Under the pieces are notes generated by a model, which was not told the origin of the DNA, ran no database searches, and worked only from the letters and a program-made list of their open reading frames with translations. From a virus, in the IMG/VR virus record IMGVR_UViG_3300036901_000046, positions 1 through 30,840 of that record: 30,840 bases of DNA; one strand, given 5' to 3'. The translations under genes were made by a program, and so were the position numbers. Position 1 is the stretch's first letter. Each line of letters begins with the position of its first letter. Shown here one piece after another: positions 264-25,740 of this stretch.

Positions 264-970
264 TATCTCACCTCGTCCACAAAGCCATACCGCAAACACT
301 CATCCGACGTGAGGTAAGAATCCTTGCGGGTCATCAACGCGCGCACCTTCGCCTCACTTGTTTTGCCGTTTGACCTTGAACTGAATATCTTTACTATCCG
401 TGTCGTTGCCTTATCCAAGAAGTCAAGGTGATCCTTCTGCTGCGACACCGAACCGATATTCCACGACTTCGCCTCATGGATCATCAGGTACGACTCGGCA
501 CCGATCACACGCACGTCACCGCTCTGCAAAAGAATCCCGGCCATCGAAGCTGCCCACCCGTAAGCGACAGTAGTAACCTTGTGGCCCGTACGCCTTAGCG
601 CGCAAATATGGTCGAAAAGGTGCATCCCGTCGATGATCGAGCCGCCCGGAGAATTGAACACGATCTCCATATCGCAGCCCGGATCGACACGGCTCCAAGT
701 CGTCAACTGCACCATACAGTCCCGCACGCTCTTCTCGTTCACGTCCGACGAAAAGATGTAGGTCTTGTAGTGAAAGTTCTGGGCTAGTTCAAGTTTCTCC
801 GAGAACAAGCGTGCCCTTAGTTCAATCTCGGCTACATCGGCCATCGCGTTTTGCAGCCGCGTTTCAGCCTTAGCCTTCTCGGCCAGCGCCTCATGCTCGG
901 ATGCCTCAGCGTCAATGCACCGGATTTCTTCCGGGGTGAGCGGCGGATATTCGGTTGCTTCATCAGCCAT
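263..970 (-). CDS. ClpP-like serine protease (S14 / head maturation type)
   Basis: A 235-aa protein of the ClpP/crotonase fold. The core shows NSPGGSI near residues 107-112, the nucleophile motif AASMAG with Ser142, and MIHEA with His165. The C-terminal TSDECLRYGFVDEV resembles the ClpP end. The position expected for the third triad residue (around Met213-Asp217) does not align clearly with the ClpP Asp, so the triad is only two-thirds certain. Residues 15-65 are an Ala/Glu-rich helix, probably a coiled coil. ClpP-like phage proteins usually act as capsid maturation proteases, but a separate S78-type prohead protease lies at 23974-25734, so the role here is open. The start is the ATG at 970 behind GGAGAACGC; an in-frame start at 994 would overlap the previous gene. 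Confidence 0.88.
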   Translation of the reverse strand: MADEATEYPPLTPEEIRCIDAEASEHEALAEKAKAETRLQNAMADVAEIELRARLFSEKLELAQNFHYKTYIFSSDVNEKSVRDCMVQLTTWSRVDPGCDMEIVFNSPGGSIIDGMHLFDHICALRRTGHKVTTVAYGWAASMAGILLQSGDVRVIGAESYLMIHEAKSWNIGSVSQQKDHLDFLDKATTRIVKIFSSRSNGKTSEAKVRALMTRKDSYLTSDECLRYGFVDEVR

Positions 971-981
971 GCGTTCTCCAA

Positions 982-1902
982 TCAGTGATTGCAACCGTTG
1001 TAATGTGTCCAGTATTCGCGTGTGTCCACAGGTTCATGGCAGCGAGGGCAAGGGAAGGTGAACCGCACGCCGTCCCGCAGTGTTTCGATGGCGCGGTAGT
1101 CGTCAAGCCACGGATGCCACGTCTTGAACAGCGGCACGTCGATTGAGTTGGCCCGCAGTATCCACTCCATATTGCGACTGTGGTGAAGGTGAAACCCGCG
1201 CGCCTCACGGACGAACGACACACCGATCCCGTGCGCGACCGCCCGGAACCCAAGCTCCCCATCCTCGCACCGACCGTGAAACATCGAGGGGTGAAAGCCG
1301 CCGATACCCGTGAACAGGTCGATAGGCCAAACAAGGTTCCCGCCGTACTGTGCGCCCCCCGCACCCATAAGGAACGACACTGTGCCAGGTGTTTCGGGGT
1401 CGTTTACGTCGAGTGAGGTAAGGTCGCCCCGGATGATGTGGTCGGGGTCGAAGTCCGCGAAACCGTTAGAACCCCTGCGGTCGTCAAGTTGAAAGAACGG
1501 GCCGTCAGGGTGTATCCCCACCACACCCGCTGGTAGCCAGTCGTACGGTCCCACAAGCACTCGTGGCTCAGGATTCGCCGCGTAAGCGTCCGTGTAGGCT
1601 TGGAGTGCGTTCGGTGCGAGTTGCACGTCCGAATCCACGAAGGCGACGTGCGTGCATTCGGGCGCGACTCGTTGGAGTTCACGGACCCCCACGTTGCGCG
1701 GCTGCTCGCTGCCCGGTTGGTGCTTCGGTATCTCCACCGGGAACGTGGGTGTGTGAGGCTCTGGGAGCGCGTATGCGGGGCAGCCGTCGAAAACCAATAC
1801 AACCGCTAAGGGCTGGACCGTCTGGGCCGCTAACGCGCTTAGAACGTGCGAGAGGTTCTGCTCGCGGCCAACCGGTGCTGTGATGACGACGCCGACATTC
1901 AC
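982..1902 (-). CDS. Family-2-like glycosyltransferase
   Basis: A 306-aa GT-A-type glycosyltransferase, which would move a sugar from a nucleotide donor to an unknown acceptor in the cytoplasm. It opens with a Rossmann-like VGVVITAPVGREQNL, has a DSD metal-site motif in HVAFVDSDVQLAP, and a typical late acidic motif GRCEDGELGFRAV. The C-terminus carries CPRCHE and a final GCNH that could bind zinc. It is a clear paralogue of the gene at 8238-9086: both share PGSEQPRN, FHGRCEDGELG and a WHPW segment. The GTG at 1902 overlaps the upstream epimerase stop as GTGA; another GTG at 1911 is possible. Donor and acceptor cannot be read from the sequence. Confidence 0.85.
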   Translation of the reverse strand: MNVGVVITAPVGREQNLSHVLSALAAQTVQPLAVVLVFDGCPAYALPEPHTPTFPVEIPKHQPGSEQPRNVGVRELQRVAPECTHVAFVDSDVQLAPNALQAYTDAYAANPEPRVLVGPYDWLPAGVVGIHPDGPFFQLDDRRGSNGFADFDPDHIIRGDLTSLDVNDPETPGTVSFLMGAGGAQYGGNLVWPIDLFTGIGGFHPSMFHGRCEDGELGFRAVAHGIGVSFVREARGFHLHHSRNMEWILRANSIDVPLFKTWHPWLDDYRAIETLRDGVRFTFPCPRCHEPVDTREYWTHYNGCNH

Positions 1903-2957
1903 GCCGTCCACCGTTCGGCGTTCTGGTCCGCGATATCACGCACCATCCCCTCAAGGGTCCACGACTGCGACCAAGAAGGATAATCCGTTTGGAACGCAGC
2001 GTTGGAGGAAATCCAGTGTTTGTGGTCCCCTATGCGCGGTGTGTCATCGAAGTCATACGTGAGTCGTTTGCCCGTCACCGCTTCCGCGAGGTCGATAGCC
2101 TCAAGAACGCTGATCGAGTTCTCGCGCCCGCCGCCAATGTTGTACACAGCGCCCGCAGACGGCCTATCAACGAACGCAAGGAACGCGCGCACAAGGTCGC
2201 TAGAGTGAATGTTGCACCGCACTTGGAACCCGCGATAGCCGATGATCGTGTAAGGTTCTCCGGTGATACAGCACTTCACGAGAAATGAGAGAAAACCGTG
2301 GAGCTTCGCCCCCGAGTGATTGCCGCCCGTCAAGCAACCGGGGCGAAAACAGACTGTCGGAATATCGAAGTAGCGCCCGTATTCTTGGCACGCAAGATCG
2401 CCCGCAAGTTTTGAGACACCGAACAGAGAGTGCGTCGTAAGGTCAACCGACATACTCGTGTCTATCCCTGAATAGTAGCGGTGCGTCTTGGGAAGGTCGT
2501 AACGCTTCTCGTGGCACCTTAGCGGGAGCGTGTTTGGCCGCGCGCCGTAGACTTTACTGGTCGAGCACAAAACGAACGGACTATCGGGGCAATGCACCCT
2601 AGTCGCCTGCAAAAGCCCCAACGTCGCGCGAGCGTTCACGTCGAAATCCGTTAGCGGCTCCCGAGCAGCCCAATCATGCGACGGCTGTGCGGCAGTGTGA
2701 ATCACCACATCCGGTTTCGTAATGTGGAACAGTCCGTCTATCGCGTCGGTGTCCCGAATGTCCATCGACACGTGCTGAAACGAATCACCGAGCGAACGAG
2801 ACAAGCGGGTGATGTTGTGCTGCGTCGAAGCCTCGGGGCCGAAAAAGTAGCTGCGAAGGTCACAGTCGATGCCGACTACATCGTAGCCCGCCTGGACGAA
2901 CTGCTCGCACGCCTCCGTGCCGATCAAACCTCCGGCGCCAGTGACGAGGGCGATCAT
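1899..2957 (-). CDS. NAD-dependent sugar epimerase/dehydratase (extended SDR)
   Basis: A 352-aa extended short-chain dehydrogenase/reductase. The N-terminus has the NAD-binding TGAGGLIG (residues 6-13), followed by VSMDIRD, TAAQPSHDW and the STSKVYG segment. The usual YxxxK active-site pair reads SLFGVSK, with Phe where Tyr is normally found. The later CFRPGCLTGGNHSG and NIGGGRENS are typical of nucleotide-sugar epimerases. The overall pattern recalls CDP-paratose/CDP-tyvelose 2-epimerase relatives, but the substrate is not proven. It would supply or modify a nucleotide sugar for the neighbouring transferases. It starts with an ATGA overlap with the methyltransferase upstream. The Phe may be family-typical or may mean altered chemistry. 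Confidence 0.88.
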   Translation of the reverse strand: MIALVTGAGGLIGTEACEQFVQAGYDVVGIDCDLRSYFFGPEASTQHNITRLSRSLGDSFQHVSMDIRDTDAIDGLFHITKPDVVIHTAAQPSHDWAAREPLTDFDVNARATLGLLQATRVHCPDSPFVLCSTSKVYGARPNTLPLRCHEKRYDLPKTHRYYSGIDTSMSVDLTTHSLFGVSKLAGDLACQEYGRYFDIPTVCFRPGCLTGGNHSGAKLHGFLSFLVKCCITGEPYTIIGYRGFQVRCNIHSSDLVRAFLAFVDRPSAGAVYNIGGGRENSISVLEAIDLAEAVTGKRLTYDFDDTPRIGDHKHWISSNAAFQTDYPSWSQSWTLEGMVRDIADQNAERWTA

Positions 2958-3688
2958 GCGTCGTACGCTTTACGTCCGAGCCAACAAAACGCGGGCTGGC
3001 CAGCACGACCATTCACCCTACGCCAACCATACACAAAACGGTCATGCTCGTAATCCAACTGCCAGACCGTTTCATACTTCGCATCGAACGCACGGTGAAT
3101 ATCCCCCACCGTCAGGTTTATGGCATGGCTCGGATGCGGATGGTGATGTGCGTTGGATTCGTTGCACGCAATCGCCATGTAGCCACCCTTGCGCAACGTC
3201 CAATCCATCGCGGCAAGCGCAGCCTTAGCGTTCCGAACATGATCCAGCGAGTTCGTGGCGATCACAAGGTCAAACGAATGACAGTCACCGCACACATCCG
3301 GCCATTCCTCTATCGTCGCCTCCCAATGATCGGGGCACGGCGCAATCTCACGATAAGACGGCGTGCAAGGATCAACCACGATGCGCGACCTGAACGGCAA
3401 AAGATCACTAAGAGGCAACGGGCCGCCGCCAACCTCTAGAACGTCGAAACGGTGAGTAGGTAGCCGGTCGAGTAGCAGCGACTTTATCAGCGACGGGTGA
3501 CGGATTCTCTCCCTCAAAAGTTTGTCGTCTAGGCCGGAATCCGGGGCGACCCAACTTTGTGCTTCCGCCGCGAGTTGATCCGTGTAAGCCAAGTGCGGTT
3601 CGGTAGCCCCGCTTGACGCGCTCAGGTCGTCTAGGTGCCCCATCGCTTCGCGCGCACGATCTACGGTCGCGGAATTACTACGCCCCAT
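2954..3688 (-). CDS. SAM-dependent methyltransferase (class I)
   Basis: A 244-aa class I methyltransferase. Motif I is FDVLEVGGGPLPLSDLLPF, motif II contains IVVDPCTPS, and the post-II strand is FDLVIATNSLDHV. LRKGGYMAIACNES follows as the region before the C-terminal strands. This order is typical of small-molecule or sugar methyltransferases. Placed between a glycosyltransferase and a sugar epimerase, it probably methylates a sugar, but no acceptor motif proves it. The ATG at 3688 has a good SD (GGGAGAAC). It overlaps the upstream transferase by 28 bases and is coupled downstream through an ATGA. Confidence 0.85.
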   Translation of the reverse strand: MGRSNSATVDRAREAMGHLDDLSASSGATEPHLAYTDQLAAEAQSWVAPDSGLDDKLLRERIRHPSLIKSLLLDRLPTHRFDVLEVGGGPLPLSDLLPFRSRIVVDPCTPSYREIAPCPDHWEATIEEWPDVCGDCHSFDLVIATNSLDHVRNAKAALAAMDWTLRKGGYMAIACNESNAHHHPHPSHAINLTVGDIHRAFDAKYETVWQLDYEHDRFVYGWRRVNGRAGQPAFCWLGRKAYDA

Positions 3689-4368
3689 CCATGTTCTCCC
3701 AACTCTCGGTTCGCAATCGTGTCGCGCGGATACACCTTCGCCCTACACCGCGCCTCATTCTCCACACACGGCTCGATCCTGCTGGTATGCCACTGATGTA
3801 GCGCTTCACACCCATCAATGCGACGGTAGTCGTGGCCGATCTTCGCAAGGCGCCCGTTCAAATCGAAGTCGTCGTGGCCCCACGGATTCTCAAAACCCTC
3901 ATCGTACCCTTGCACATCGAAAAGCCAACTGCGACGATAAAGAGTGTAATAGGGGAACGTCCCCATCCGTTCGGCGTCCTCGACCCCGCTACCCTCATTG
4001 TTAGCGTGATATGTCCAACCGTAGAGAATATCCTCCGAGTAGGACTCGCGCGCCGCTTTCAACTGTGCCACAATATCCGTTAGGAACAAAACTTCCGGCT
4101 CGACCATAAGTAGGTCCGTGCTCGACGCCATTCGTGCCGCAGCATTACGTGGCTGGCACGGCGTAGCGAAATAGGGCCGGTGGTTGTATATGTATTGAAT
4201 CGGAAGGCCAAAGGATGCGAACGTCGAGCAACAGTCCTCACAGCCATCGTCCGAACCATCATCCACGACGATCAGTTCGTCCGGCCACGTCTTATCGACA
4301 AGGGCGGTGAGCGAGTTCCAAAGCAGCGGCGTCCGGTTGTACGTCGCCACGATCATACTCACACTCAC
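3661..4368 (-). CDS. Family-2-like glycosyltransferase
   Basis: A 235-aa GT-A enzyme. It starts SVSMIVATYNRTPLL, and the donor-site signature is LIVVDDGSDDGCED. The position of the usual DxD reads VEPEVLF, so the metal-binding motif is not canonical. The acceptor side contains NPWGHDDFDLNGRL, as in galactosyltransferase-type C-terminal domains. It is a paralogue of 6180-6902: both have EALHQWH/EVLHQWH and end in WGVVIPRP/WGVLIPRP. The ATG at 4368 overlaps the upstream methyltransferase stop as ATGA. Linkage and sugar are unknown. Confidence 0.86.
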   Translation of the reverse strand: MSVSMIVATYNRTPLLWNSLTALVDKTWPDELIVVDDGSDDGCEDCCSTFASFGLPIQYIYNHRPYFATPCQPRNAAARMASSTDLLMVEPEVLFLTDIVAQLKAARESYSEDILYGWTYHANNEGSGVEDAERMGTFPYYTLYRRSWLFDVQGYDEGFENPWGHDDFDLNGRLAKIGHDYRRIDGCEALHQWHTSRIEPCVENEARCRAKVYPRDTIANRELGEHGWGVVIPRP

Positions 4369-4922
4369 AGCAGTATTACGCCCATTCCCATGCCGCCGTT
4401 GTCGGGGTCCACAAACTCGTCAGTCCGGTGGGACTTCTTGAGTTCGGCCCACGCCTCGCTAGCCTGATTCGCCACGTCGTGCATCCCGACCAGCCCACCC
4501 TTTGCAACGAGCGGTGAGTAGTTAGCAAAGTCCGCCATCGCCGCCTCATACGAATGGTCGGCGTCGATGAACAGCCAGTCCACCGGCGTTGTCGCCCAGT
4601 CGTGTACCGCCCGCACAGTGTCCGCCGCCCGTGAGTCACCCTTGAACAACCGCAACGTCTGATGTTCACGGGCGGGCCACGGCGCGCGAGCCATCAGGTC
4701 GGAGAACATGGAACTATGCCACTCGGCGTCCACACCCATCGCCTGCGCGTCATCCGCCGCCACCTGCAACCAAGCCCACAGGGACCACCCGGACTCCACC
4801 CCGATTTCAAGGATGCGCTTAGGCTTACGTTCCGCCACGAGGTTGCACATAAACCGCAACTCGGATTCGTGCTGGTTCGCGCCAATCGCCGCCTCACGAG
4901 CAATCGCGTCAACGTCGCTCAT
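4365..4922 (-). CDS. SAM-dependent methyltransferase (Methyltransf_24-like)
   Basis: A 185-aa class I methyltransferase. Motif I is RILEIGVESGWSLWAWLQ, followed by VDAEWHSSM, GDSRAAD and DWLFIDADHSYEAAMADF, then VAKGGLVGMHDV. The FIDADHSYE segment is characteristic of O-methyltransferases of the Methyltransf_24 group. The chosen ATG at 4922 overlaps the stop of the upstream transferase as ATGA and has GAGGACG just before it; the ATG-like start at 4943 would enter the upstream gene. A role in O-methylation of a sugar or glycan fits the neighbours but is inferred. Confidence 0.84.
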   Translation of the reverse strand: MSDVDAIAREAAIGANQHESELRFMCNLVAERKPKRILEIGVESGWSLWAWLQVAADDAQAMGVDAEWHSSMFSDLMARAPWPAREHQTLRLFKGDSRAADTVRAVHDWATTPVDWLFIDADHSYEAAMADFANYSPLVAKGGLVGMHDVANQASEAWAELKKSHRTDEFVDPDNGGMGMGVILL

Positions 4923-5716
4923 CCGAACGTCCTCTGACGCCACTCGGCGGCCATCACGCGCCCTTCCTCGGTGCAGCGAAGGGGATCAATCTCCGTCGGC
5001 TTGAGTTCGCCCGAGAGATATTTAGGCAGCGCGAACACCCCTTCGTAATCAAGTGCCGTTTGTTCATTCCAGTCCACGCCGTCAATCGTGCGATGGCGTC
5101 CGCATGGGCTGTTGAAGTTGAAAAACACACTATCGAGCCGAGCAACCACCTTGTACCCCAATTGGCGCGCACGATGGTAGAAAAAATGATCCGTGAAATA
5201 ATGCAGAGGAGGAAAAACCCCGATTTTCTCCCACGCCTCACGGCTACAGGTAGGGAGATTCCCCGACACTATCTCCTCCCAATCCGTTTGGGGCTGCCGT
5301 TCGGGAATGTCGGAGTAAAAGTAAGACATCGGATCGCGCGGCACGGGGTAGTAATCCGGTGGCATCGGAGGATGCGTCTGGAAAATCTGCTGATCCCGAA
5401 TATGGCCGCCCGCAGGTTCGATACGCACACAAGGCACACAACCCGCATCGCACGCCTCAATCAGCGGCTCGACCCAACCCGTCGCAGGCACAATGTCATC
5501 GTTGGAAAAGTGAATGTACTGCGCATCGAAGTGGGCAAGCCCGCGCTCAGCGGCAAGGTTCCATCCGGCCCCCGCGCCGTCGGCGTCGTACACCACTTCG
5601 ATCTTCCACTCGACGCTCTTAGGCGTCCGCTCCGCAAAGCCACGGATGGCGTTCACGAGGTATGGAGCACGTGAAGTGAGTGACGGGATTGCGATGAGAA
5701 TACGCGGGCGACTCAT
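4919..5716 (-). CDS. Glycosyltransferase, GT-A fold
   Basis: A 265-aa protein starting SRPRILIAIPSLTSRAPYLV, with the acidic metal-site segment IHFSNDDIVPATGWVEPLI near residues 88-106. A VSGNLPTCSREAWEKIGVF segment and a TDHFFYHRARQLGYK segment follow, as in family-2 enzymes where the acceptor side recognises a second acidic residue. It has no close paralogue in the window. The ATG overlaps the phosphatase stop as ATGA. Specificity is unknown. Confidence 0.8.
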   Translation of the reverse strand: MSRPRILIAIPSLTSRAPYLVNAIRGFAERTPKSVEWKIEVVYDADGAGAGWNLAAERGLAHFDAQYIHFSNDDIVPATGWVEPLIEACDAGCVPCVRIEPAGGHIRDQQIFQTHPPMPPDYYPVPRDPMSYFYSDIPERQPQTDWEEIVSGNLPTCSREAWEKIGVFPPLHYFTDHFFYHRARQLGYKVVARLDSVFFNFNSPCGRHRTIDGVDWNEQTALDYEGVFALPKYLSGELKPTEIDPLRCTEEGRVMAAEWRQRTFG

Positions 5717-6183
5717 GCGTGCGCCCTAAGCCAGTCGCAGAAATGACCGTTGAACAAAACCTCACGCGAACGCTTCGCACGTAGTAGTTCCACCGCATCA
5801 TCGAACGTGTACCCGTCGCGCATAAGCGCCAACGCTAGGATCAACCCCGAGCGGTTGCGTCCACCCTCACAGTGAACCAGCGTCTTACCCTCCGACCGCC
5901 AACGGTTCACGAGTTCCGCAAGGGCCTCCACGTCGTCCGGTATGTCCACACCGTCCACAAACGGCGCTTCATACCGTGTAGTGTTCGGGCCAAGATCGTA
6001 ACACTGTCGCGTTAGTGAAACAACGTAACGAAAATCATCGGGGAGATGGGCACCCTCAACTACGCCGCCCATCCAAAGGTTCGGTTGTATCTCGCTGATA
6101 AGCGGGACGCGCGGCTGTCCAGGGGTAGGCCCCGGATTGTCAAGGTGCTCTAGCTGGCGGTACTGTTCTCCAAGGTCAGTCAC
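5713..6183 (-). CDS. Dual-specificity/tyrosine phosphatase-like protein
   Basis: A 156-aa protein with the cysteine-phosphatase signature VHCEGGRNRSG (Cys105, Arg111) and an upstream VDIPDD that can supply the general-acid Asp. The fold fits a compact dual-specificity phosphatase. In a sugar island it could dephosphorylate a sugar phosphate or lipid intermediate, or a host phosphoprotein; the sequence does not decide. The GTG at 6183 makes a GTGA overlap with the upstream transferase stop; the longer in-frame start at 6240 would overlap it by 61 bases and is less likely. A phosphatase among phage glycosyltransferases is uncommon. Confidence 0.85.
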   Translation of the reverse strand: MTDLGEQYRQLEHLDNPGPTPGQPRVPLISEIQPNLWMGGVVEGAHLPDDFRYVVSLTRQCYDLGPNTTRYEAPFVDGVDIPDDVEALAELVNRWRSEGKTLVHCEGGRNRSGLILALALMRDGYTFDDAVELLRAKRSREVLFNGHFCDWLRAHA

Positions 6184-6902
6184 GGGCGCGGTATCAGTAC
6201 TCCCCACTCGGCTCCTTGGTTTGCCACAACCGCCATGCAACGGTCGGCGTCCATTTTCGCCAAAAAGTAACGCTCATTCGGGCCAAGATCAACACCCCTA
6301 TGCGGATGCCATTGATGTAAAACCTCAGCGTGCGGAAGATTGTACTGACCGTGACCGGATGCCATCAGTCGCGTGCCCATATCGACATCATCAAAGCCCC
6401 ATTTTGAGGGGAAGTGCTCGTCATACCCACCAATGTCAATCATCCACTGGCGACCATACATACACACCCAGGTTGCCTGCCAGTTCTCCGTGGTAGTGAC
6501 TTGCGGCGGATTCCAGTCCGGGTGCTCATGGTGAACCGTGCCGACGTTGAGCATATCGTCGGGGCGTTCGGCATGAACCTCTAGGAACTGTGTGAGAATG
6601 TCCGTCTGCCAGTACATCTCGGGTTCGCTCGATATCACAAGCTCGCAATCCGTGTTGCGGAGGCCCACGTTGCGCGCCCACGCGCCCATAGAGTCCACAG
6701 GATTGTGATGGTACAGGTAGCGAACGTTGAGGCCCGTGTCGGCCCTCACCGCTTCGCACACACCCTCACACCCGTCCGACCCTCCGTCATCCACCACCAA
6801 CACCTCGTCGGGGCGGCTTAGTTCTGCGATACGTCTCAGGCTACGAGAGAGAAGCGGACTGCGATTGTACGTTGAGATTAGGCAGCACGTCGAAGGGGTC
6901 AC
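6180..6902 (-). CDS. Family-2-like glycosyltransferase
   Basis: A 240-aa GT-A enzyme with STYNRSPLLSRSLRR, the donor-site VLVVDDGGSDGCEG, SSEPEMYW in the place of DxD, and KWGFDDVDMGTRLM on the acceptor side. It is a paralogue of 3661-4368, sharing the non-canonical SEPE/VEPE motif and the C-terminal IPRP. The start is a GTG at 6902 in a GTGA overlap with the upstream gene. The duplicate pair suggests successive additions of related sugars or divergence after duplication; both readings are inference. Confidence 0.86.
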   Translation of the reverse strand: MTPSTCCLISTYNRSPLLSRSLRRIAELSRPDEVLVVDDGGSDGCEGVCEAVRADTGLNVRYLYHHNPVDSMGAWARNVGLRNTDCELVISSEPEMYWQTDILTQFLEVHAERPDDMLNVGTVHHEHPDWNPPQVTTTENWQATWVCMYGRQWMIDIGGYDEHFPSKWGFDDVDMGTRLMASGHGQYNLPHAEVLHQWHPHRGVDLGPNERYFLAKMDADRCMAVVANQGAEWGVLIPRP

Positions 6903-7534
6903 TCAGTCTCCGCTATCTCGTCCTGCATCCGGTCCGCCACATCCGTTGTGTAAACCCACGTCACAGCGGGCACACAACGAAACACGCTCTCGTTCGCTGC
7001 CAGTCGGCGCCACAGTTCCCAGTCCGCAAAGTTCGCGGGCGAACCCACATAATGCCCGCCGTCGCACAACAGGCCGCCCTCCCACTCAACGGGAAAACCG
7101 CCCGTATCCCTCAACGCCGACGTTCGGACAATGGCCGCGCCACCGTCGATGAAGTTCTCGGCATCGAGATAGGACCGTATCTTGTCCGTGTCCCACTCGT
7201 TGCAGTTCGCCCTCGGGATCACACGGTCACGGTCGTACGAGTACACCACATCCGCCCCAGGGCTTGCGTCCATTAGCACCGCGATATGGTCCGGTAGCCA
7301 CCAGTTGTCGTCGTCAAGGACCGCAACCCACTCTGACTCGACCGCCTGTAACGCTTGGTTCAGGCTTGTGGCCTGATGTACCGGCGCTGGCCCTTCCGGG
7401 TTGCGTGTGACGATGATGTGCTGGTCGATAGGGTGAGACTGTATGCCGACACTACGAGCGGCGAGAGGAATAGAGGATTCGCGGCCGGGCACCGAGGCAG
7501 TAAGGACGGAAACGGTAGGCGTATTTGCCGTCAA
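6899..7534 (-). CDS. Family-2-like glycosyltransferase
   Basis: A 211-aa GT-A enzyme with PTVSVLTASVPGRESSIPLA at the N-terminus, a DDD metal motif in WVAVLDDDNWWLPDH, and ANFADWELWRRLA on the acceptor side. A TTG at 7534 is the likely start, with GGAGAAC 8-9 bases before it. It is the first leftward gene after the rightward cassette at 7554-8001, so its leader overlaps that promoter on the other strand. Leftward transcription must either read through from 8241 or start nearby. Confidence 0.82.
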   Translation of the reverse strand: MTANTPTVSVLTASVPGRESSIPLAARSVGIQSHPIDQHIIVTRNPEGPAPVHQATSLNQALQAVESEWVAVLDDDNWWLPDHIAVLMDASPGADVVYSYDRDRVIPRANCNEWDTDKIRSYLDAENFIDGGAAIVRTSALRDTGGFPVEWEGGLLCDGGHYVGSPANFADWELWRRLAANESVFRCVPAVTWVYTTDVADRMQDEIAETE

Positions 7535-7553
7535 ATCTTTATGTTCTCCAGGC

Positions 7554-7582
7554 TTGACACGGACACGCTAACGCGCTATCTT
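7554..7582 (+). promoter_or_regulatory. Sigma-70-type promoter for the rightward cassette
   Basis: TTGACA (7554-7559), a 17-base spacer and TATCTT (7577-7582). The ATG of the next gene lies 6 bases after the -10 box, so the transcript should be leaderless. From CGCTAACGCGC through TATCTTT the 18 bases are identical to the promoter at 21310-21338. Confidence 0.8.
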
Positions 7583-7588
7583 TGTCCT

Positions 7589-7813
7589 ATGACAACAAGC
7601 GCCCCATACACAGCAGGCCAAGCGGTCGAGGTTTCAGCGCACGACTTCAAGACTCCAGGGTTCCCGAAGGCTTGGTTCCCCGCGACGGTAGTGAGCGTCG
7701 ATAGCCGCGAGGATGGCAAGTGGGACGTTCAAGTCCTCGCCATCAAGGGCACCTACCACCCGCAGATCATCGGCAAGCGCGGCGGCAACAATCTCATTCG
7801 GAGCGCGTCGTGA
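7589..7813 (+). CDS. Small hypothetical protein, SH3-like barrel suspected
   Basis: A 74-aa protein read from the leaderless ATG at 7589, immediately after the -10 box. Its pattern of AGQAVEVSAHDF, KAWFPATVVSVDSREDGKWD and a closing NNLIR suggests a small SH3- or Tudor-like beta barrel, but no family is recognised. It is coupled to the next gene by a GTGA overlap. It runs against the surrounding leftward operon and looks like an independently expressed accessory gene. Confidence 0.75.
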   Translation: MTTSAPYTAGQAVEVSAHDFKTPGFPKAWFPATVVSVDSREDGKWDVQVLAIKGTYHPQIIGKRGGNNLIRSAS

Positions 7814-8001
7814 ACGTCGGGGATCGCGTCACGCACCTAGATATGCTCGCGCAGGACGAGCGAACCCTCCCGATGAAGGGTACCATTGTCGGCGTTGAGA
7901 CTACCTACATCGTCCAGTGGGACAACGCGGAGACTCGACTGTGTGGCGACGGGAAGCGAACCCACTCCTACCCGCCCGAAGCCTTGACGCTACTCGGGTA
8001 G
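7810..8001 (+). CDS. Small hypothetical protein with KOW/SH3-like pattern
   Basis: A 63-aa protein starting at GTG 7810, overlapping the previous stop as GTGA. VNVGDRVTHLDM, MKGTIVGVETTYIVQWDN and PPEALTLL follow the alternation typical of small SH3-like barrels. It may be a distant cousin of the gene before it. Its last 12 bases overlap the end of the leftward gene at 7990-8241. Function unknown. Confidence 0.72.
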   Translation: MNVGDRVTHLDMLAQDERTLPMKGTIVGVETTYIVQWDNAETRLCGDGKRTHSYPPEALTLLG

Positions 8002-8241
8002 CCGTGTCTCGCTTCTCATGTCACGCAGCCAATCCCAATACGCGGGAAGGTCAGGCAACACGGCAAGCTTGCGAGCAATACGTCGCTCCACATCACCGCT
8101 CAAGCCGTACTCGTTGCACCACGACTGCCAACCACCAACGAGTGCCCGTAGTTCCTCGTCATCAAAGGACGGAAGGGTGACCGTCTCTATCTGTCGCTGC
8201 CACGACTTGATTTCTGCGTCGTACTCGTCCATAGCGCTCAT
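7990..8241 (-). CDS. Small hypothetical protein, 83 aa
   Basis: The ATG at 8241 overlaps the upstream transferase stop as ATGA and has a good SD (GAGGAGAAC). The product is acidic and helical (MSAMDEYDAEIKSWQRQIE, later DDEELRALVGGWQSW) with no recognised domain. Its end overlaps the rightward gene at 7810-8001 by 12 bases. It belongs to the glycosylation operon by position only. Confidence 0.72.
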   Translation of the reverse strand: MSAMDEYDAEIKSWQRQIETVTLPSFDDEELRALVGGWQSWCNEYGLSGDVERRIARKLAVLPDLPAYWDWLRDMRSETRLPE

Positions 8242-9086
8242 GCGTTCTCCTCGCAGTCGCACCCGTTCCATATCCCGAAAAGATGGCACGCCCGACCATG
8301 CGGACACACCCAATCGAACCGCCTGCCATCCTCGTCGCTCAAACGCAGAGCATCGAGAACCCAAGGATGCCACTCCGCCAGTAGCGGAACATCCCGCCGA
8401 TTCCGTTCAAGAATCATAGGCAGATCCACAGGGTGCGCCTGATGGTACCCGCGAGCACCCGCCACGAACATTACGCCAACCCCGGACTCAACGGCACGCA
8501 TCCCGAGTTCGCCGTCCTCACACCGGCCATGAAACAACCGTGCGTCAAACCCGCCCAACCGTTGAAACAGTGGGACCGGCCACACAACGTTACCCGAAAA
8601 CGAGCCAACCGCCGACCCCAAATCGTTGAACAGGACTTGACCGTCAAAAGCATCGAAAGCAGGCCATCGCGGGTCATTCCTCGTCGCAGGCTGTAAACCC
8701 TCCACACCCTCCGCAAGCCATTCGTATGGACCGAGCATCACACGGTCTGAGGAGGGCTTACACGCGCTCTCATACGCCTCTAAAGCGTCCGGCGCGAACA
8801 CCACGTCCGAGTCTGCGAACAGGACGTGCGTGCAATCCGGTGCGACCGCGCGAAGATGCCTCACCCCCAGGTTACGCGGCTGCTCCGAACCCGGATAATG
8901 CTTCCGTGACAAGACATGACGGACCGGGACAGCGTTCCCAAGCACATCCGTAGCATCGCAGCCGTCGTACACTAGGACGATATATCTCGGTTTGAGAGAT
9001 TGCGAACCAAGCGACTCGATCAGCGGCAGTATGTCGCGGTCGGGACCGACAGGGCACACGACACCGAGAGTGAAGCCGTCAGGCAC
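8238..9086 (-). CDS. Family-2-like glycosyltransferase
   Basis: A 282-aa GT-A enzyme and paralogue of 982-1902. It shows TLGVVCPVGPDRDILPLIES, LVYDGCD, PGSEQPRNLGVRHLR, the DSD motif in VLFADSDVVFAP, and FHGRCEDGELGMRAVES. The C-terminus has VCPHGRACHLFGIWNGCDC, again a possible zinc site. The GTG at 9086 is chosen because it overlaps the upstream stop by 8 bases and follows a G-rich SD; the longer reading from 9149 would cover 63 more bases of that gene. Sugar specificity is unknown. Confidence 0.85.
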   Translation of the reverse strand: MPDGFTLGVVCPVGPDRDILPLIESLGSQSLKPRYIVLVYDGCDATDVLGNAVPVRHVLSRKHYPGSEQPRNLGVRHLRAVAPDCTHVLFADSDVVFAPDALEAYESACKPSSDRVMLGPYEWLAEGVEGLQPATRNDPRWPAFDAFDGQVLFNDLGSAVGSFSGNVVWPVPLFQRLGGFDARLFHGRCEDGELGMRAVESGVGVMFVAGARGYHQAHPVDLPMILERNRRDVPLLAEWHPWVLDALRLSDEDGRRFDWVCPHGRACHLFGIWNGCDCEENA

Positions 9087-9345
9087 TCGGCCCCCCGGCG
9101 AGCAGCGTGCGAACACGATCAATCTCGCGCAGCCAATACCTGCCATCACCGCCAGTCGAAACGGATACCTGCATCACGTCCCAGCCGCGCAGCCCGACTA
9201 GCAACTTGTCAGCTTCGGTCGCCGCAGCCATCAGCGCATCGCGCTCGGCCACGATCTCCCGCACCGTGTCCGCTTCGCCCCACCACTGGCGACCTTCAAA
9301 CCACTCAATGATCGACGCGCCGGTTCGTGACGTAGGCTCGCTCAT
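9079..9345 (-). CDS. Small hypothetical protein, 88 aa
   Basis: The ATG at 9345 overlaps the stop of the upstream transferase as ATGA. Most of the product is predicted helix (TVREIVAERDALMAAATEAD), probably a short coiled coil, and it ends in a positively charged REIDRVRTLLAGG. No domain is recognised. Tight coupling on both sides suggests co-translation with the transferases. Confidence 0.68.
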   Translation of the reverse strand: MSEPTSRTGASIIEWFEGRQWWGEADTVREIVAERDALMAAATEADKLLVGLRGWDVMQVSVSTGGDGRYWLREIDRVRTLLAGGPSA

Positions 9346-10091
9346 GCGGCGTGGAACTGTACAGGGCCGTGGTGGATTTTCGCTACCCGCACCGACCCAT
9401 CATCCTCAAACGCCTCATTCACCGTCGAAGGGCCAACACCCCAACCCACATTCGACACAACATCCTCGTCAGGCAACGCGAGAATATACCCCTTCGCCTG
9501 AACAGCCTCTTTCAACGTCTTATCCTCGCCAAAGCCGTCCGAGTGAGTCGTGATCGGCCCGCACTCCTCATACACGCTCCGCTTGATAGCGAACGCCGAG
9601 CCGACGAAATCCTCGACCTCCTGATAGCCGTCGTGCTGATGCAGGAACATCTTGCGATGGTCAACCGGATCATGGTCGTACCTAAAAAGCCCGACGCAGC
9701 CTACCCTCGCTGTTCCCGTAACGGGTGAGAACACGGCAGGAGCATCAAGGATAGCGACCGCTTTCGCCAACCAGCCCGGACGCGCGATCAAATCCTGATC
9801 GTACTTCACAAGTATCTCACCGGACGCGACACCGAACGCCGCGCGAATCGACTCCCCAACCCCCTGATTGTGACCCGGAGGTTGAAGCACCAGCCGTGAA
9901 ATACGGGCGTTATTCAACAGGTCAAGCAACAAAGGGTAAACGTCGGGGTCTTTCGACCCGTCATCGTGTGCCACGATCTCGCAAGGGTATCCAGCCTGAT
10001 CTCTCGCGTGCTCGATGGCTTGCGCGAGAAACTCCGGACGGTTGAAACTCAACACGCAGACCGACGCGAGGCCGAGGATAGGGAAAGTCAC
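9342..10091 (-). CDS. Family-2-like glycosyltransferase
   Basis: A 249-aa GT-A enzyme: ASVCVLSFNRPEFLAQAIEH, IVAHDDGSKDPDV, GVGESIRAAFGVASGEILVK followed by the YDQDL metal motif, then DFVGSAFAIKRSVYEECG and HSDGFGEDKTLKEA. All landmarks of a family-2 transferase are present. The start is GTG at 10091 (GTGA overlap). It is the second gene of the transcript that begins at the promoter near 10440. Confidence 0.85.
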   Translation of the reverse strand: MTFPILGLASVCVLSFNRPEFLAQAIEHARDQAGYPCEIVAHDDGSKDPDVYPLLLDLLNNARISRLVLQPPGHNQGVGESIRAAFGVASGEILVKYDQDLIARPGWLAKAVAILDAPAVFSPVTGTARVGCVGLFRYDHDPVDHRKMFLHQHDGYQEVEDFVGSAFAIKRSVYEECGPITTHSDGFGEDKTLKEAVQAKGYILALPDEDVVSNVGWGVGPSTVNEAFEDDGSVRVAKIHHGPVQFHAA

Positions 10092-10321
10092 GCAGCACCC
10101 TCACGCTTTTCAGCATGCGCAAGTGCCCAAGCAACATCCCGCAAACGGCTCAGACCAATACGGTGCGACCCGTATCCAAAGTCAATGTCGGTAACACCTG
10201 CGATCCCAACTAGATAGTCACCGTCACCGTCGAAAAACGAAAAACTGTGCTTGCCTTCGCCATCGTCCACCAAGGACACGCGCACATCACCCGCGTCCCT
10301 TATCTGCCACGACTGTTTCAC
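10088..10321 (-). CDS. Small hypothetical protein, 77 aa
   Basis: GTG start at 10321 with GGAGAACAA directly before it. The product is short and acidic in the middle (VDDGEGKHSFSFFDGDGDYL) with a C-terminal helix (LSRLRDVAWALAHAEKREG). No domain is recognised. It is the first gene after the leftward promoter at 10428-10457, with a leader of about 100 bases. Confidence 0.7.
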   Translation of the reverse strand: MKQSWQIRDAGDVRVSLVDDGEGKHSFSFFDGDGDYLVGIAGVTDIDFGYGSHRIGLSRLRDVAWALAHAEKREGAA

Positions 10322-10396
10322 TTGTTCTCCGTTCTCACTGGAAAAGCTTTGTGAAGTGTGCTGCTTACACCACGGCGCGTCGCGTACACGTCGGCC

Positions 10397-10461
10397 GGGC
10401 TTGACACCGGCACCTCTTCCGCGAGCGAGAATAGCAGCCGCTACCCCTCGGTGTCAAGCCC
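10397..10461. repeat. 13-bp perfect inverted repeat around a promoter
   Basis: GGGCTTGACACCG (10397-10409) and CGGTGTCAAGCCC (10449-10461) are perfect inverted copies separated by 39 bases. Each copy contains TTGACA. The right copy forms the -35 box of a leftward promoter; the left copy has no good -10 in the opposite direction. This could be an operator pair for looping or a duplicated binding site. Confidence 0.8.
10428..10457 (-). promoter_or_regulatory. Leftward promoter inside the glycosylation island
   Basis: On the minus strand TTGACA (10457-10452), 18 bases, then TATTCT (10433-10428). The first gene downstream starts at 10321. The TGA stop of the transferase at 10454-11194 lies inside the -35 box. 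This gives the left two-thirds of the island its own transcription start. Confidence 0.7.
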
Positions 10462-11194
10462 CATGCGTAACCAGCCACGGCGGGGGATCCTCCACAACCT
10501 CGCCGCACCCATCATCCCACGGCTTACGCCCCGCAAGGACATTGTGCGTCACCGAATCGCCCCTAAAAACTTTGCTGTCTGTCGGCTCGTCGCCATCCAC
10601 CGGCATCAGGGTATAGCCGGCCGCGTGAAGTCGCCGCCACATCATCCCGTCCGCGTGCAACCAATCCTCCGGACCCGTAGGCCACCCCCCCGCACGCACA
10701 AACGACTCGCGCGTATGAATCACCGAATTCAAGTCCACCTTGAAACACGCGTCATCCAACGGGCCAATCGTCGGGCGAACCGCAAGCTCCGTCCCCCGCT
10801 CGTTCAAAAGACGTTGCGGCCCGTACACGCAATGATGCCCCTCACGGATCTTCCGCATCATCCGCCACAACCGCTCCGGCAACCAGAAATCGTCCGCACT
10901 CAGGTACGCGATCACGTCGCCCGAAGTCTGACTTACACCGAAATTGATGTTCGCCGCGTAACGGACAGTCTGCTCGCGTTCCTCCCACGACGGCCAAAAC
11001 CTGTACACCGAATGACCCGCAAGCTCAGCCTCCGCTAGTACAATCTGTGACTCGGGGTCCGTACTACCATCATCGAGAATAGTCAGATGCCAGTCAGGGT
11101 AATCCTGCTCCTCAACAGAACGAATCGCGCGGCCAAGGAACTCCCCTAACTGATAGCTGACCAGCATCACATCGACAGACGGCCATTCCTTCAC
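10454..11194 (-). CDS. Family-2-like glycosyltransferase
   Basis: A 246-aa GT-A enzyme: SVDVMLVSYQLGEFLGRAIR, LTILDDGSTDPESQ, and AYLSADDFWLPERL with the DD metal motif. A C-terminal ADGMMWRRLHAAGYTLMPVD follows. The GTG at 11194 overlaps the upstream stop as GTGA; the listed longer start at 11239 is unlikely. The gene ends exactly in the -35 of the next promoter. Confidence 0.85.
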   Translation of the reverse strand: MKEWPSVDVMLVSYQLGEFLGRAIRSVEEQDYPDWHLTILDDGSTDPESQIVLAEAELAGHSVYRFWPSWEEREQTVRYAANINFGVSQTSGDVIAYLSADDFWLPERLWRMMRKIREGHHCVYGPQRLLNERGTELAVRPTIGPLDDACFKVDLNSVIHTRESFVRAGGWPTGPEDWLHADGMMWRRLHAAGYTLMPVDGDEPTDSKVFRGDSVTHNVLAGRKPWDDGCGEVVEDPPPWLVTHGA

Positions 11195-11607
11195 AGAACC
11201 ACCAACACGCCGTCTTTGCCGTTGGCCGACAAACGACACCGCAAACCCGTATGCTCGTACACAACAATATATTCGCCATGGCTAAGGGCCTGCTCAATCA
11301 CCCAACGCGACTGACAGATCATCACGCTCGGCTTATTATTGTCGCTGTAAATCGGCACACCCTCGGGGTAAACGTGAAGGTCGAAGTACCCCTCAGCGCG
11401 GCCATTCTCAATCAGCCCATACCACGGATACGAAAACGCGAGCGGCGGTGGCTCAGGGAGCGGGTCTTTCCCCGCCAACAAACGCCCGAGCAACGCACTA
11501 TGCCAAGCGTCTGCCGGAGTTGGTGCTTCGTTGGGATAGCCTATCTCTAGCCATCTAGCAACGAGGGAGGGAACATCCGCGACACTGATCGTCGGCGTTT
11601 CCGTCAT
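11191..11607 (-). CDS. Hypothetical protein, 138 aa
   Basis: The ATG at 11607 overlaps the stop of the small membrane gene upstream (ATGA). The N-terminal half is helical and acidic (SVADVPSLVARWLEIGY). The C-terminal half looks like beta strands (GYFDLHVYPEGVPIY, PSVMICQSRWVIEQ, GEYIVVYEHTGLRC). No family is recognised. Position inside the island suggests a role linked to glycosylation, but nothing in the sequence proves it. Confidence 0.72.
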   Translation of the reverse strand: MTETPTISVADVPSLVARWLEIGYPNEAPTPADAWHSALLGRLLAGKDPLPEPPPLAFSYPWYGLIENGRAEGYFDLHVYPEGVPIYSDNNKPSVMICQSRWVIEQALSHGEYIVVYEHTGLRCRLSANGKDGVLVVL

Positions 11608-11732
11608 TCCTCGTCGTCCGTAAGGTCGCCCAACGGCATCCGTGCAATCGCCTCATCCACCACCCGCAACGAAAGCCACACACACCCCGACATAAGGACA
11701 ATCACACCCACAAGAATCAGCCAGTCGATCAT
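11604..11732 (-). CDS. Small single-pass membrane protein, 42 aa
   Basis: Starts at ATG 11732 with CGGAGAGCG before it. The start overlaps the upstream stop as ATGA, and its own stop overlaps the next ATG in the same way. Residues 2-22 (IDWLILVGVIVLMSGCVWLSL) form one hydrophobic segment, followed by a short charged tail ending DDEE. It would sit in the host membrane and could anchor or recruit an island enzyme; that is inference. Confidence 0.72.
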   Translation of the reverse strand: MIDWLILVGVIVLMSGCVWLSLRVVDEAIARMPLGDLTDDEE

Positions 11733-12250
11733 ACGCTCTCCGTTCTCTCAAAATGCCTGCGACAAGGAGCATGAGCAGGCAGGTGATCCGACAAGTGCTC
11801 GACCTGCCCGTGCGCACCACAATGCGACACACCCAACCCCCCGAGCACCGTGCGCAAGTTCGCGTCAAGGATGCACCAGTGGCGCGGCGAATGCGCGTTG
11901 TCCTCCATCTCGCCCACAAGCGTCAACACGTCCGGATGCTCGCGCAACAATTCCTGCCGGAACCGCGTACACCCCAACCCCGTAGACATACCCCCAACGT
12001 AAGGATAATGCGCCGAACAGTACACGTTGCGGCACTCGTCGAAGCCCGCGACCGTCTCACGCTTCACAAGAATGTCCTGCTCCACGATCAGAAACGATTC
12101 GCCCCGTCGCCACAAATCCGACAAAAGATGCCAGTAGTTACTGTCCGACCCCGACACGTCGTGAAGCTCGACAGCATACCCCGACTGTGACGCCGCGTTA
12201 TACACACCGTCACGCAACCCGCCCGACACATAGGGAACAATCAGGCGCAA
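11729..12250 (-). CDS. Putative glycosyltransferase-like protein
   Basis: A 173-aa protein that resembles a truncated GT-A domain: RLIVPYVSGGLRDGVYNAA, then SFLIVEQDILVKRET, where ExD may replace DxD, and a later MEDNAHSPRHWCILDANL. It shares the motif layout of the gene at 12411-12980 (LIV...; VEQDI against VEHDI; late H-rich segment). The TTG start at 12250 follows AAGGGCC. Family-2 enzymes are usually longer, so a minimal enzyme or an accessory subunit is possible. Confidence 0.6.
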   Translation of the reverse strand: MRLIVPYVSGGLRDGVYNAASQSGYAVELHDVSGSDSNYWHLLSDLWRRGESFLIVEQDILVKRETVAGFDECRNVYCSAHYPYVGGMSTGLGCTRFRQELLREHPDVLTLVGEMEDNAHSPRHWCILDANLRTVLGGLGVSHCGAHGQVEHLSDHLPAHAPCRRHFERTESV

Positions 12251-12253
12251 GCG

Positions 12254-12400
12254 CTAGGCCCTTGTCGCCCTAGCCCAAGCACGATGATAAGGCATCGTCA
12301 CCCGCGTATACCGCTGCAACGGCCACAACGCGCTAATCACAACCGCCCAACGAAACGAAACAGGCTCAGCCCAACTACGATACCGCAGCAGACTTCTCAC
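12254..12400 (-). CDS. Small cationic, possibly membrane protein, 48 aa
   Basis: GTG start at 12400 with AAAGGAGAGC just before it, 10 bases after the stop of the upstream gene. The product starts MRSLLRYRSWAEPV, has one moderately hydrophobic stretch (FRWAVVISALWPL) and ends in an Arg-rich tail. A single-span peptide or a nucleic-acid or glycan binder are both possible. The longer reading starting at 12457 would overlap the previous gene. Confidence 0.55.
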   Translation of the reverse strand: MRSLLRYRSWAEPVSFRWAVVISALWPLQRYTRVTMPYHRAWARATRA

Positions 12401-12410
12401 ACGCTCTCCT

Positions 12411-12980
12411 TTAGTAGTGATCGTGAATCTCCCGGCCATCATCCAACCAATGCACATGCCACCTGCCCGAACACGCAGCCGTCACGCTTATATCAACATG
12501 GCCCCAATGCGACTCAGCAAGCGCACCCACCCTAACCTCCGGGTGAATCTTGCAACACCCAATAGCAGTGAAATCACACCACTCGACGCCCTCCGTAATA
12601 GGCGCCCCAAGATACAGGTTCTCACGTCTACAGTTCGCAGGAGGATTATGACGCTGAGCGTACTGAGGCTCAGGACGATGCGTCGAAGGCCAAAACAAAC
12701 TGTGGGCGACAGTACACATCTTGAACGGACAATCAACGAGAGACTGAATCAGATCGTCGTCGGCAAGGATATCGTGCTCAACATTCACCAAAACGAACGG
12801 ATCATCCCACACGCTCTGTAAGCCCTTGTAATACGACAAATCGTCCACACAAGGAATACGCCACACCGGGAACCGATTACTGCGAAACGGGCGCGTAGAG
12901 CCTGGGACATAGCTGCTAACGATCAGCGGCGGAGCCTGCTCGGATGCCACCTTTGCGCCACCGCCAGTCGTAATCGGCAA
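12411..12980 (-). CDS. Putative glycosyltransferase-like protein
   Basis: A 189-aa protein, paralogue of 11729-12250. It has PPLIVSSYVPGSTRPFRSN, FVLVNVEHDILADDDLIQ with an ExD-like motif, and EWCDFTAIGCCKIHPEVR, HWGHVDISVTAA and WHVHWLDDGREIHDHY. The C-terminal His-rich end is unusual. The start is probably TTG 12980 behind AGGAGAGGG; starts further upstream run into the homing gene. The homing gene at 12989-13933 sits directly before it, yet the N-terminus aligns with the paralogue, so the gene appears intact. Confidence 0.6.
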   Translation of the reverse strand: MPITTGGGAKVASEQAPPLIVSSYVPGSTRPFRSNRFPVWRIPCVDDLSYYKGLQSVWDDPFVLVNVEHDILADDDLIQSLVDCPFKMCTVAHSLFWPSTHRPEPQYAQRHNPPANCRRENLYLGAPITEGVEWCDFTAIGCCKIHPEVRVGALAESHWGHVDISVTAACSGRWHVHWLDDGREIHDHY

Positions 12981-12988
12981 ACCCTCTC

Positions 12989-13933
12989 CTAAACCGGCAA
13001 CTCCGCCGTACCGCAATGAACACAGTTCTCGTGGACGATGCCACGGTTTACATGCCAACGAATATGGCTACCCCAGCCCTGCGTATTACGCTGTGCCTCG
13101 GCCAGCCTTGCGCGAGTCTCGGCCGATCTAGGTGGCTGCTTGTAAGGCTCGCCCTCAGCCGTTCCGCACCAAATGCAATTAGGGTGCACAAGATCGCGGT
13201 TCACATGCCACCGCTTGTGCATGCTCTCTGCCGTGACAAGATCGGGATTCTTCTTCTTCCCCCAAGGATGCGGCGCGGGAGGTTCAACATCCCACGGCGC
13301 AGTCCCGCAATGAATACAGGCAGGGTGAACGATCCCGCGCTTTTCGTGCCAGTTACGGTGAGCACCCAAGGACCGAACTACAAGACCTTCCGTCGCTTTT
13401 GCGTAACGTGCTGCGTGCGCCGCATCTCTACACGCACGGCAATGACGATGCCCGTCCGCCGTGATGATCGTATTCTCGGGCGTGTACTCGTGACCCTTAC
13501 GGCACTCGGTAGTGACCTTTTGGTATAGGCCGCGCCCACGTCGCTCGACGGGAATTGCCTGATCCATCACAGCAGCCCATTGCTCTATGCGACGGGCAGC
13601 CGACAGGTAGGGACAAACCACATTGTAAAAGTGCTCGACGCCATTCCAGTTACGAATGCCCCAAACCCATAGGGGCTTGTACTCTAAACGGCTAGGCGGT
13701 GTATAGGGACCGTTGACCTTTCCGCCGAGAAATTCGCAAACCCGATCAAGCGGCTCACGGTCCGTCATGCTGATCGAAACCTCGACACCGTTCGACCTCT
13801 TGGTATCACCCGACTCAGACCTAGCCCTAGTGGTCCCTTCGCCTTCCCATAGGGCGGCGACCCAAATAGCCTTCTCGCGGTCGGTGAACGTGTCCCATAG
13901 GTCCACAAAGGAATCTGTGCTATCGTCCGTCAT
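12989..13933 (-). CDS. LAGLIDADG-like homing endonuclease with repeated zinc motifs
   Basis: A 314-aa protein. Residues 18-125 resemble a single LAGLIDADG domain (REKAIWVAALWEGEGTT, later VWGIRNWNGVEHF). Residues 144-178 hold CRKGH and CRACRD, a zinc module often linked with HNH proteins. Three near-repeats then follow at 192-212, 239-259 and 290-310, each of the form H-x2-WH-x3-R-x2-VH-x2-C-x2-CGTA. The role is probably a free-standing homing nuclease inserted between the connector and the first island gene. The ATG at 13933 (not 14056) is chosen because AGGAGG lies directly before it and the aligned position is the start in the related leaders at 26703 and 29759. Confidence 0.8.
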   Translation of the reverse strand: MTDDSTDSFVDLWDTFTDREKAIWVAALWEGEGTTRARSESGDTKRSNGVEVSISMTDREPLDRVCEFLGGKVNGPYTPPSRLEYKPLWVWGIRNWNGVEHFYNVVCPYLSAARRIEQWAAVMDQAIPVERRGRGLYQKVTTECRKGHEYTPENTIITADGHRHCRACRDAAHAARYAKATEGLVVRSLGAHRNWHEKRGIVHPACIHCGTAPWDVEPPAPHPWGKKKNPDLVTAESMHKRWHVNRDLVHPNCIWCGTAEGEPYKQPPRSAETRARLAEAQRNTQGWGSHIRWHVNRGIVHENCVHCGTAELPV

Positions 13934-13958
13934 ATCGGGACCTCCTGGGGTTCCGGTC

Positions 13959-13991: not shown

Positions 13992-14031
13992 TTTAGTTTT
14001 GTTTCGCATCCCGTCAGTGTATCAGATTCAC

Positions 14032-19404: not shown

Positions 19405-19432
19405 TTCGCACACCTTTCGTCGTCACCGTCTG

Positions 19433-25734: not shown

Positions 25735-25740
25735 GAACGC

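Follow-up and report, generated by a model that had tools for sequence, protein, structure and literature searches.

The DNA analysed here, called the window, is the entire IMG/VR virus record IMGVR_UViG_3300036901_000046, 30,840 bp from an uncultured virus, and our subject is an island of sugar-related genes in its head module. The island is one minus-strand gene run at 982-13058, bounded by the head-tail adaptor side (14032-14724) and a ClpP-like gene (263-994). It contains eight GT2-type glycosyltransferases (GTs), two small GT-A-like proteins, a nucleoside diphosphate (NDP)-sugar epimerase, two methyltransferases (MTs), and a dual-specificity phosphatase. A sequence-only reading had placed a glycosylation island at 982-12980; the location stands, on the minus strand, with the run being slightly longer. 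The genes, named hereafter by their lower coordinates, are as follows.

982-1911, minus strand: GT2/GT-A glycosyltransferase, 982 type, with DSD and CEDGELG (profile A6 to PDB 2z86, E 6e-38)
1899-2957, minus strand: NDP-sugar epimerase/dehydratase, extended short-chain dehydrogenase/reductase (SDR) (PF01370, E 7e-36)
2954-3688, minus strand: S-adenosylmethionine-dependent methyltransferase, class I-like, VLEVGGGP (PF08241, E 2e-4, marginally above the cut-off)
3661-4368, minus strand: GT2 glycosyltransferase, 6180/3661 type, EPE replacing DxD (PF00535, E 7e-11)
4365-4943, minus strand: O-methyltransferase, Methyltransf_24/rhamnosyl O-methyltransferase-like (PF13578, E 2e-16; PF04989, E 1e-7)
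4919-5716, minus strand: GT-A glycosyltransferase (PF00535, E 0.003, below the cut-off; AlphaFold2 and Foldseek)
5713-6240, minus strand: dual-specificity phosphatase, real start probably internal to the open reading frame (ORF) (PF00782, E 1e-9; phrog_10650, E 2.5e-22)
6180-6902, minus strand: GT2 glycosyltransferase, paralog of 3661 (34% identity; PF00535, E 2e-12)
6899-7534, minus strand: GT2 glycosyltransferase, DDD (PF00535, E 9e-7; phrog_14775, E 1e-10)
8238-9149, minus strand: GT2/GT-A glycosyltransferase, 982 type (PF13641, E 9e-7; 40% identity to paralog 982)
9342-10091, minus strand: GT2 glycosyltransferase, DQD (PF00535, E 1e-17)
10454-11239, minus strand: GT2 glycosyltransferase (PF00535, E 2e-18; orthologs in the related contigs G007 and G025)
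11729-12250, minus strand: small GT-A-like protein, VEQDI, candidate priming transferase (family A10; 51% identity to the G025 homolog; homology to the 12411-type model)
12411-13058, minus strand: small GT-A-like protein, VEHDI, candidate priming transferase, real start probably internal to the ORF (AlphaFold2 and Foldseek of the G007 ortholog)

The series had been described as nearly unbroken with start/stop overlaps. Minus-strand coding makes up 94% of 982-13058 and 4-bp ATGA/GTGA-type overlaps occur at eight junctions, which bears this out, but gaps (455 bp at 7535-7989, 160 bp, and 132 bp), together with several small ORFs without matches, qualify the word unbroken. At 7535-8001, two plausible plus-strand small ORFs (~75 and ~62 aa) interrupt the minus-strand run. 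Promoter- and terminator-like sites in the island occur at chance level only, so the operon structure is drawn from gene spacing. As previously read, the island follows the head connector: the adaptor is confirmed by phrog_442, with an HNH endonuclease gene in between.

Six of the GTs pass the Pfam cut-off (3661, 6180, 6899, 9342, and 10454 with PF00535; 8238 with PF13641), and two score under it, 982 being backed by its family profile and 4919 by its fold. The family profiles of 982, 6180, and 9342 have the two-domain K4 chondroitin polymerase as their top PDB match (E 6e-38, 1e-32, and 3e-16, respectively). The AlphaFold2 model of 4919 (pLDDT 81, pTM 0.83) matches GT-A folds in Foldseek, polypeptide GalNAc-transferases best (E 1.9e-8), at TM-scores near 0.5 that do not assign function. 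Neither 11729 nor 12411 has a Pfam or PHROG match. The 12411-type model, that of the G007 ortholog, is weaker (pLDDT 71, pTM 0.73), and its best matches are transferases of the GT-A and NDP-sugar kinds (PDB E 9e-5; viral library E 6.5e-5) with TM-scores of only ~0.4-0.6. DxD-type motifs are found as DSD (982, 8238), DDD (6899), DQD (9342), NDD (4919), and ADD (10454), and as the variants EPE (3661, 6180), EQD (11729), and EHD (12411). Ten GTs, about the number first claimed, is a fair count, with eight firm and two (11729, 12411) probable by predicted fold. The island GTs contain no clear membrane segment; the sole hydrophobic peak, in 982, falls in the alpha1/beta2 region of the fold, and the only clearly hydrophobic island ORF is one of 42 aa at 11604-11732. 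Hydropathy and profile scans found no GtrA/GtrC-like partner, flippase, or polyprenyl-phosphate GT among the island ORFs.

The epimerase/dehydratase, two MTs, and phosphatase of the sequence-only reading are all confirmed by profile matches. The closest solved relatives of 1899 are CDP-tyvelose 2-epimerases (9rl0, E 3e-30; 1orr, E 1e-24), and 1899 lacks the catalytic Tyr of YxxxK, having FGVSK against YGCSK in 1orr and 9rl0. The same Phe is present in the epimerase homolog of contig G010, so a sequencing error does not explain it; the homologs of low-G+C phages have Tyr. Because FGVSK replaces the catalytic motif expected of a CDP-tyvelose/paratose 2-epimerase, we name 1899 only as a putative SDR sugar enzyme. 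The HCX5R motif of the phosphatase is intact (VHCEGGRNRSG).

All island-bearing relatives are metagenomic fragments. In G007 (72 kb), the gene order 12411, 10454, 9342, 6180, MT 4365, 3661, MT 2954, 982 equals that of the window, and the island begins directly after the adaptor, ahead of tail-completion, tape-measure, and minor-tail genes, which agrees with the earlier expectation of a tail-gene neighbourhood. G007 shares six window GTs and both MTs; the window additionally has 11729, 8238, 6899, the phosphatase, 4919, and the epimerase. The shared island proteins have 43-66% identity (48% for the 982 ortholog and 66% for the 2954 ortholog), and the eight shared genes show nonsynonymous divergence (pN) of 0.25-0.41 and synonymous divergence (pS) of 0.73-0.82, which is near saturation. 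The synonymous excess in all shared genes points to purifying selection and, with eight genes colinear in G007 and pN well below pS, the island is, on this comparative evidence, more than a chance assembly. A hexapeptide acetyltransferase frame with one internal stop lies between the MT 4365 and 3661 homologs of the G007 island (L045:1284-1769).

Other contigs carry parts of the same gene set. G016 has 6180-4919-4365-3661-2954-982, ordered as in the window; G010 (70% G+C) has the order major capsid protein (MCP), 9342, 982, MT, 6180, epimerase, MT; and diverged versions occur in the low-G+C phages G001-G003. Nearly all contigs of the 982 search that extend far enough have a 9342-type gene ahead of the 982-type gene, mostly adjacent to it; G007 and G022 are spaced otherwise. 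GT numbers are as low as 2-4 in some of these phages.

The small 12411 family is linked to structural genes. The link to MCP in loci L007 and L008 was set aside, since these loci had been fetched by MCP and were biased; the linkage was retested by an unbiased scan in which the family was searched alone, without head-gene bait, using a 3-sequence alignment. A 12411-type gene lies 21-1372 bp downstream of a gene for MCP, a second MCP-like protein (MCP2), or the adaptor at 11 of 11 loci on nine contigs, the independent count being about eight as contigs 021388 and 037853 look near-identical. Contigs 3300037262_000027 and 3300014501_000003 each have two copies (L084/L088, L085/L087), following MCP2 and the adaptor, respectively. 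The after-adaptor copy lies just ahead of a putative tail-tube gene, which has a single PDB lead, to a tail-tube protein (E 0.21), and itself precedes the tape measure. Because mycobacteriophage glycans have been described on both capsid and tail tube (PMC12619734), we propose that the 12411/11729-type enzymes are candidate priming transferases, one copy per structural substrate.

The remaining sugar genes differ among close relatives. The G025 head genes are close to those of the window (MCP2 59%, adaptor 62%, and a 111-aa protein 69% identity), and the same site is occupied by HNH genes around it followed by 12411-, 11729-, and 10454-like genes; a 6899-like GT is also kept. The G025 island otherwise encodes two epimerase-like proteins, a transaldolase (E 2e-63), an HddA-like kinase (E 1e-34), a GmhA-like isomerase, and a weak HddC-like protein, the transaldolase, HddA-, GmhA-, and HddC-like matches all being under the NCBIfam curated cut-offs, as well as a hexapeptide acyltransferase, an FkbM-like methyltransferase, and a C-methyltransferase. 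None of its sugar-supply genes is present in the window. In G004, the after-MCP2 site contains an epimerase and a GDSL-like enzyme. The insertion site and the putative starter genes persist among these relatives while the predicted sugar chemistry changes. Tentatively, and at somewhat less than even chances, this may be a serotype-like capsid glycan locus in which a capsid- or tail-dedicated priming GT is conserved and the rest is swapped between close relatives, an epimerase and methyl-capping set for a heptose-type set; if so, these phage particles would have exchangeable sugar coats, much like bacterial O-antigens. In L082 and L091 (contig 3300036790_000092), transaldolase, GmhA-, HddA-, and HddC-like, and C-methyltransferase genes adjoin head genes as an apparent heptose/deoxysugar supply set.

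Bacterial O-antigen and capsule loci likewise combine conserved flanks with variable GT, NDP-sugar, methyltransferase, and acyltransferase genes. Unlike these, the window island is embedded in phage head genes, and no lipid carrier, flippase, or polymerase was seen in it. In phages, the virions of Che8, Corndog, and Myrna are reported to be glycosylated (Freeman et al. 2023, as cited in PMC12363180 and PMC12619734). Che8 resembles the window in using soluble phage-encoded GTs and an O-methyltransferase domain, gp108 being a fusion of a GT and a TylF-like MT; however, its three annotated GTs (gp108-110) are located at the right genome end, whereas the head module of the window has ten GTs together with an epimerase and a phosphatase. 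A head-module position is therefore not required for virion glycosylation. Ten GTs are indeed far more than usual, as originally noted, for cultured phages with reported virion glycosylation, against three annotated in Che8, two near each other in Myrna, and three in the head module of Courthouse; PF00535 matches number seven in the window versus 2, 1, and 1 in Che8, Myrna, and Courthouse, counts that understate GT numbers in every one of these genomes.

Omegavirus (cluster J) phages have a portal, protease, and MCP homologous to those of the window, with a GT/MT cassette, such as Courthouse gp15-gp21, between the MCP and the head-tail connector. This cassette differs from the island in having three GTs and one MT, in its non-orthologous GTs, and in its placement before rather than after the adaptor. 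Two of its genes are homologous to Che8 gp108 (MT part) and gp109 (E 3e-56 and 1e-99), which links head-module cassettes to the Che8 glycosylation genes. In Rhodococcus phages, virion glycosylation has likewise been inferred from far smaller gene sets (PMC13313380). In chlorovirus PBCV-1, the capsid protein receives a methylated oligosaccharide in the cytoplasm from mostly soluble, virus-encoded enzymes (PMC5408694); the island is proposed to work alike, although PBCV-1 is an unrelated virus with six GTs and scattered genes. The GTs of T4-type DNA-glycosylating systems also act inside the infected cell, as proposed for the window; unlike those systems, no base-hydroxylating gene was found in the window or G007.

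We consider it likely that the island is a virion-glycosylation locus, its target being deduced from gene context. Enzymes that look soluble, lack lipid-carrier partners, and are encoded in a run of head genes fit the stepwise cytoplasmic glycosylation of a phage structural protein, and we count in favor of this reading the 12411 linkage to capsid and adaptor genes, the G007 colinearity and selection, the Omegavirus cassette, and the site conservation in G025. Transcription of the island would be late, together with that of the head genes. The small 12411/11729-type enzymes would attach the first sugar to the capsid, and perhaps the tail-tube, protein in the cytoplasm, and the remaining GT2 enzymes would lengthen the chain one residue at a time. 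The epimerase may provide a donor sugar not made by the host, the MTs may cap hydroxyls, and the phosphatase may work on a phosphorylated sugar or glycan intermediate. Starter enzymes would remain tied to the gene of their structural substrate while downstream sugar genes are traded between phages, yielding serotype-like variation.

Several observations weigh against virion glycosylation. In L063, L064, and L066, the 9342-982 pair has DnaB, polymerase, or recombinase genes nearby, and the initial notion of a virion target proven by position alone was accordingly dropped. The capsid or tail target suggested by the sequence-only reading thus gains from the 12411-type genes tracking capsid and adaptor genes, but position alone is insufficient. 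The window GTs are not orthologous to those of Che8 (gp108-110), Myrna (gp234/gp238), or Omegavirus; the best link, from the 6180-type profile to Che8 gp109, is weak (24 bits) in a 35-sequence set, and E-values from this set are not comparable with database E-values. The missing catalytic Tyr of 1899 also counts here. Gene position is the source of the conjectured priming role of 12411/11729, whose predicted model is of moderate quality, and the virion target, the sugars, and the order of action are predictions from genes.

It is improbable that the GTs glycosylate phage DNA instead, with a hydroxylated base made elsewhere in the genome and sugars added or extended on it to block restriction. 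Phage GTs have been reported to make multi-sugar glycans on DNA (Pyle et al. 2024, as cited in PMC12619734), and the 9342-982 pair beside replication genes, a thymidylate-synthase-family gene in G010, and a DNA-methylase-like gene within the G025 island would all suit such a role. On the other hand, Tet/JBP matches numbered 0 in 11 records, a weak result since the control genomes were silent too, and a thymidylate-synthase-type gene is absent from the window and the 72 kb of G007, both possibly incomplete. DNA glycosylation also leaves the 12411-type placement at all 11 loci unexplained; the Che8 GTs are far from head genes as well, so such distance is no argument for a DNA target.

We regard as equally unlikely the remodelling of host surface glycans for receptor masking or superinfection exclusion, as by serotype-converting phages. 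Serotype conversion often involves GT2 enzymes, and polysaccharide synthases and wall-teichoic-acid GTs are among the nearest solved relatives; however, the island GTs look soluble, the membrane partners, flippase, and polyprenyl-phosphate transferase of such systems were not seen among the island genes, and the island is placed within the head gene cluster rather than beside an integrase or lysogeny module. That the island is a passenger or host-derived cargo with no dedicated particle role is very unlikely: the strong gene-content variation among the window, G025, and G004 would suit it, but it is opposed by the colinear core and purifying selection between the window and G007, by phage relatives in several scans with none of the 2954-type MT in 84,980 bacterial and archaeal species (exact peptide patterns, hence limited), and by the even G+C of the window (0.55-0.60). 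A defence island is argued against by PADLOC, which found no defence-system match among ten window genes.

As a virion-glycosylation locus, the island would be ordinary in kind and unusual in size and modularity, and the capsid- or tail-linked starter family and the exchangeable sugar sets are the most notable part. Virion glycosylation has so far been documented in a few mycobacteriophages with two or three GTs, and here an entire uncultured phage lineage has islands that combine up to ten GTs with nucleotide-sugar genes of their own and are linked to capsid and tail genes. If the reading is true, phage particles can bear long, methyl-capped, exchangeable glycan coats, with a bearing on antigenicity, stability, and receptor use. 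The island is also a source of new soluble transferases, among them a candidate protein-priming family without a Pfam or PHROG name.

The head module of the window, on the minus strand, comprises the portal, the head maturation protease, two major-capsid-like paralogs, a tRNA-Met, the 111-aa protein, and the head-tail adaptor. Its annotated genes and those flanking the island are listed below.

27632-28885, minus strand: portal protein (phrog_12, E 1e-31)
23974-25782, minus strand: head maturation protease (phrog_80, E 3e-29)
19510-21075, minus strand: major capsid protein MCP1, possible glycan target (PF05065, E 1e-7; phrog_2263, E 6e-35)
16676-17923, minus strand: MCP2, second major-capsid-like protein, possible glycan target (phrog_2263, E 7e-12; 33% identity to MCP1)
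14032-14724, minus strand: head-tail adaptor (phrog_442, E 7.5e-16)
12989-14056, minus strand: HNH endonuclease in the adaptor/island interval (phrog_5046, E 1e-17)
263-994, minus strand: ClpP-like protease immediately past the island (PF00574, Pfam, E 5e-24)

No end repeats were found in the 30,840 bp, so the record is probably a fragment. No phage record matched the window nucleotides (megablast, 50,697 phage records), and tblastn with the 982, 6180, and 9342 proteins gave no match in the same 50,697 records. Single-protein scans of viral contigs with MCP1 or 982 gave nothing, their patterns being too strict; paralog and ortholog alignments did find relatives. The protein matches of the window MCP are mycobacteriophages only, of the Omegavirus kind where inspected, with 27.9-28.6% identity among the best matches, and those of the portal also include Omegavirus mycobacteriophages. 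The portal, protease, and MCP are distant relatives of their Omegavirus counterparts, making Omegaviruses the nearest cultured relatives by these genes, and the label actinophage would draw solely on these distant head genes and on G+C. No host is named, since the one scan for the 2954-type MT gave no bacterial relative.

Several features of the head module deserve mention. The ClpP-like gene is present besides the separate head maturation protease, and its homolog was not seen in G007. HNH/endonuclease-VII-like genes occupy four head-gene junctions (12989-14056, 18520-19413, 25843-26712, and 28941-29786), and other junctions in relatives. Paired MCP paralogs are also found in G004, L084, L085, L086, and G025, with one MCP only in G007 and G005, and in L010:10001-11689 (G006 3-1691) the MCP homolog is split into two reading frames ~150 bp apart, perhaps by an intron, an insertion, or a frameshift. 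A HAD-like protein (26778-27473) is encoded between the portal and protease; its weak hidden Markov model link to Che8 gp109 was treated as noise. The L062 homolog of this HAD-like protein (3979-4416) follows the last GT, and the protein may belong to the sugar genes.

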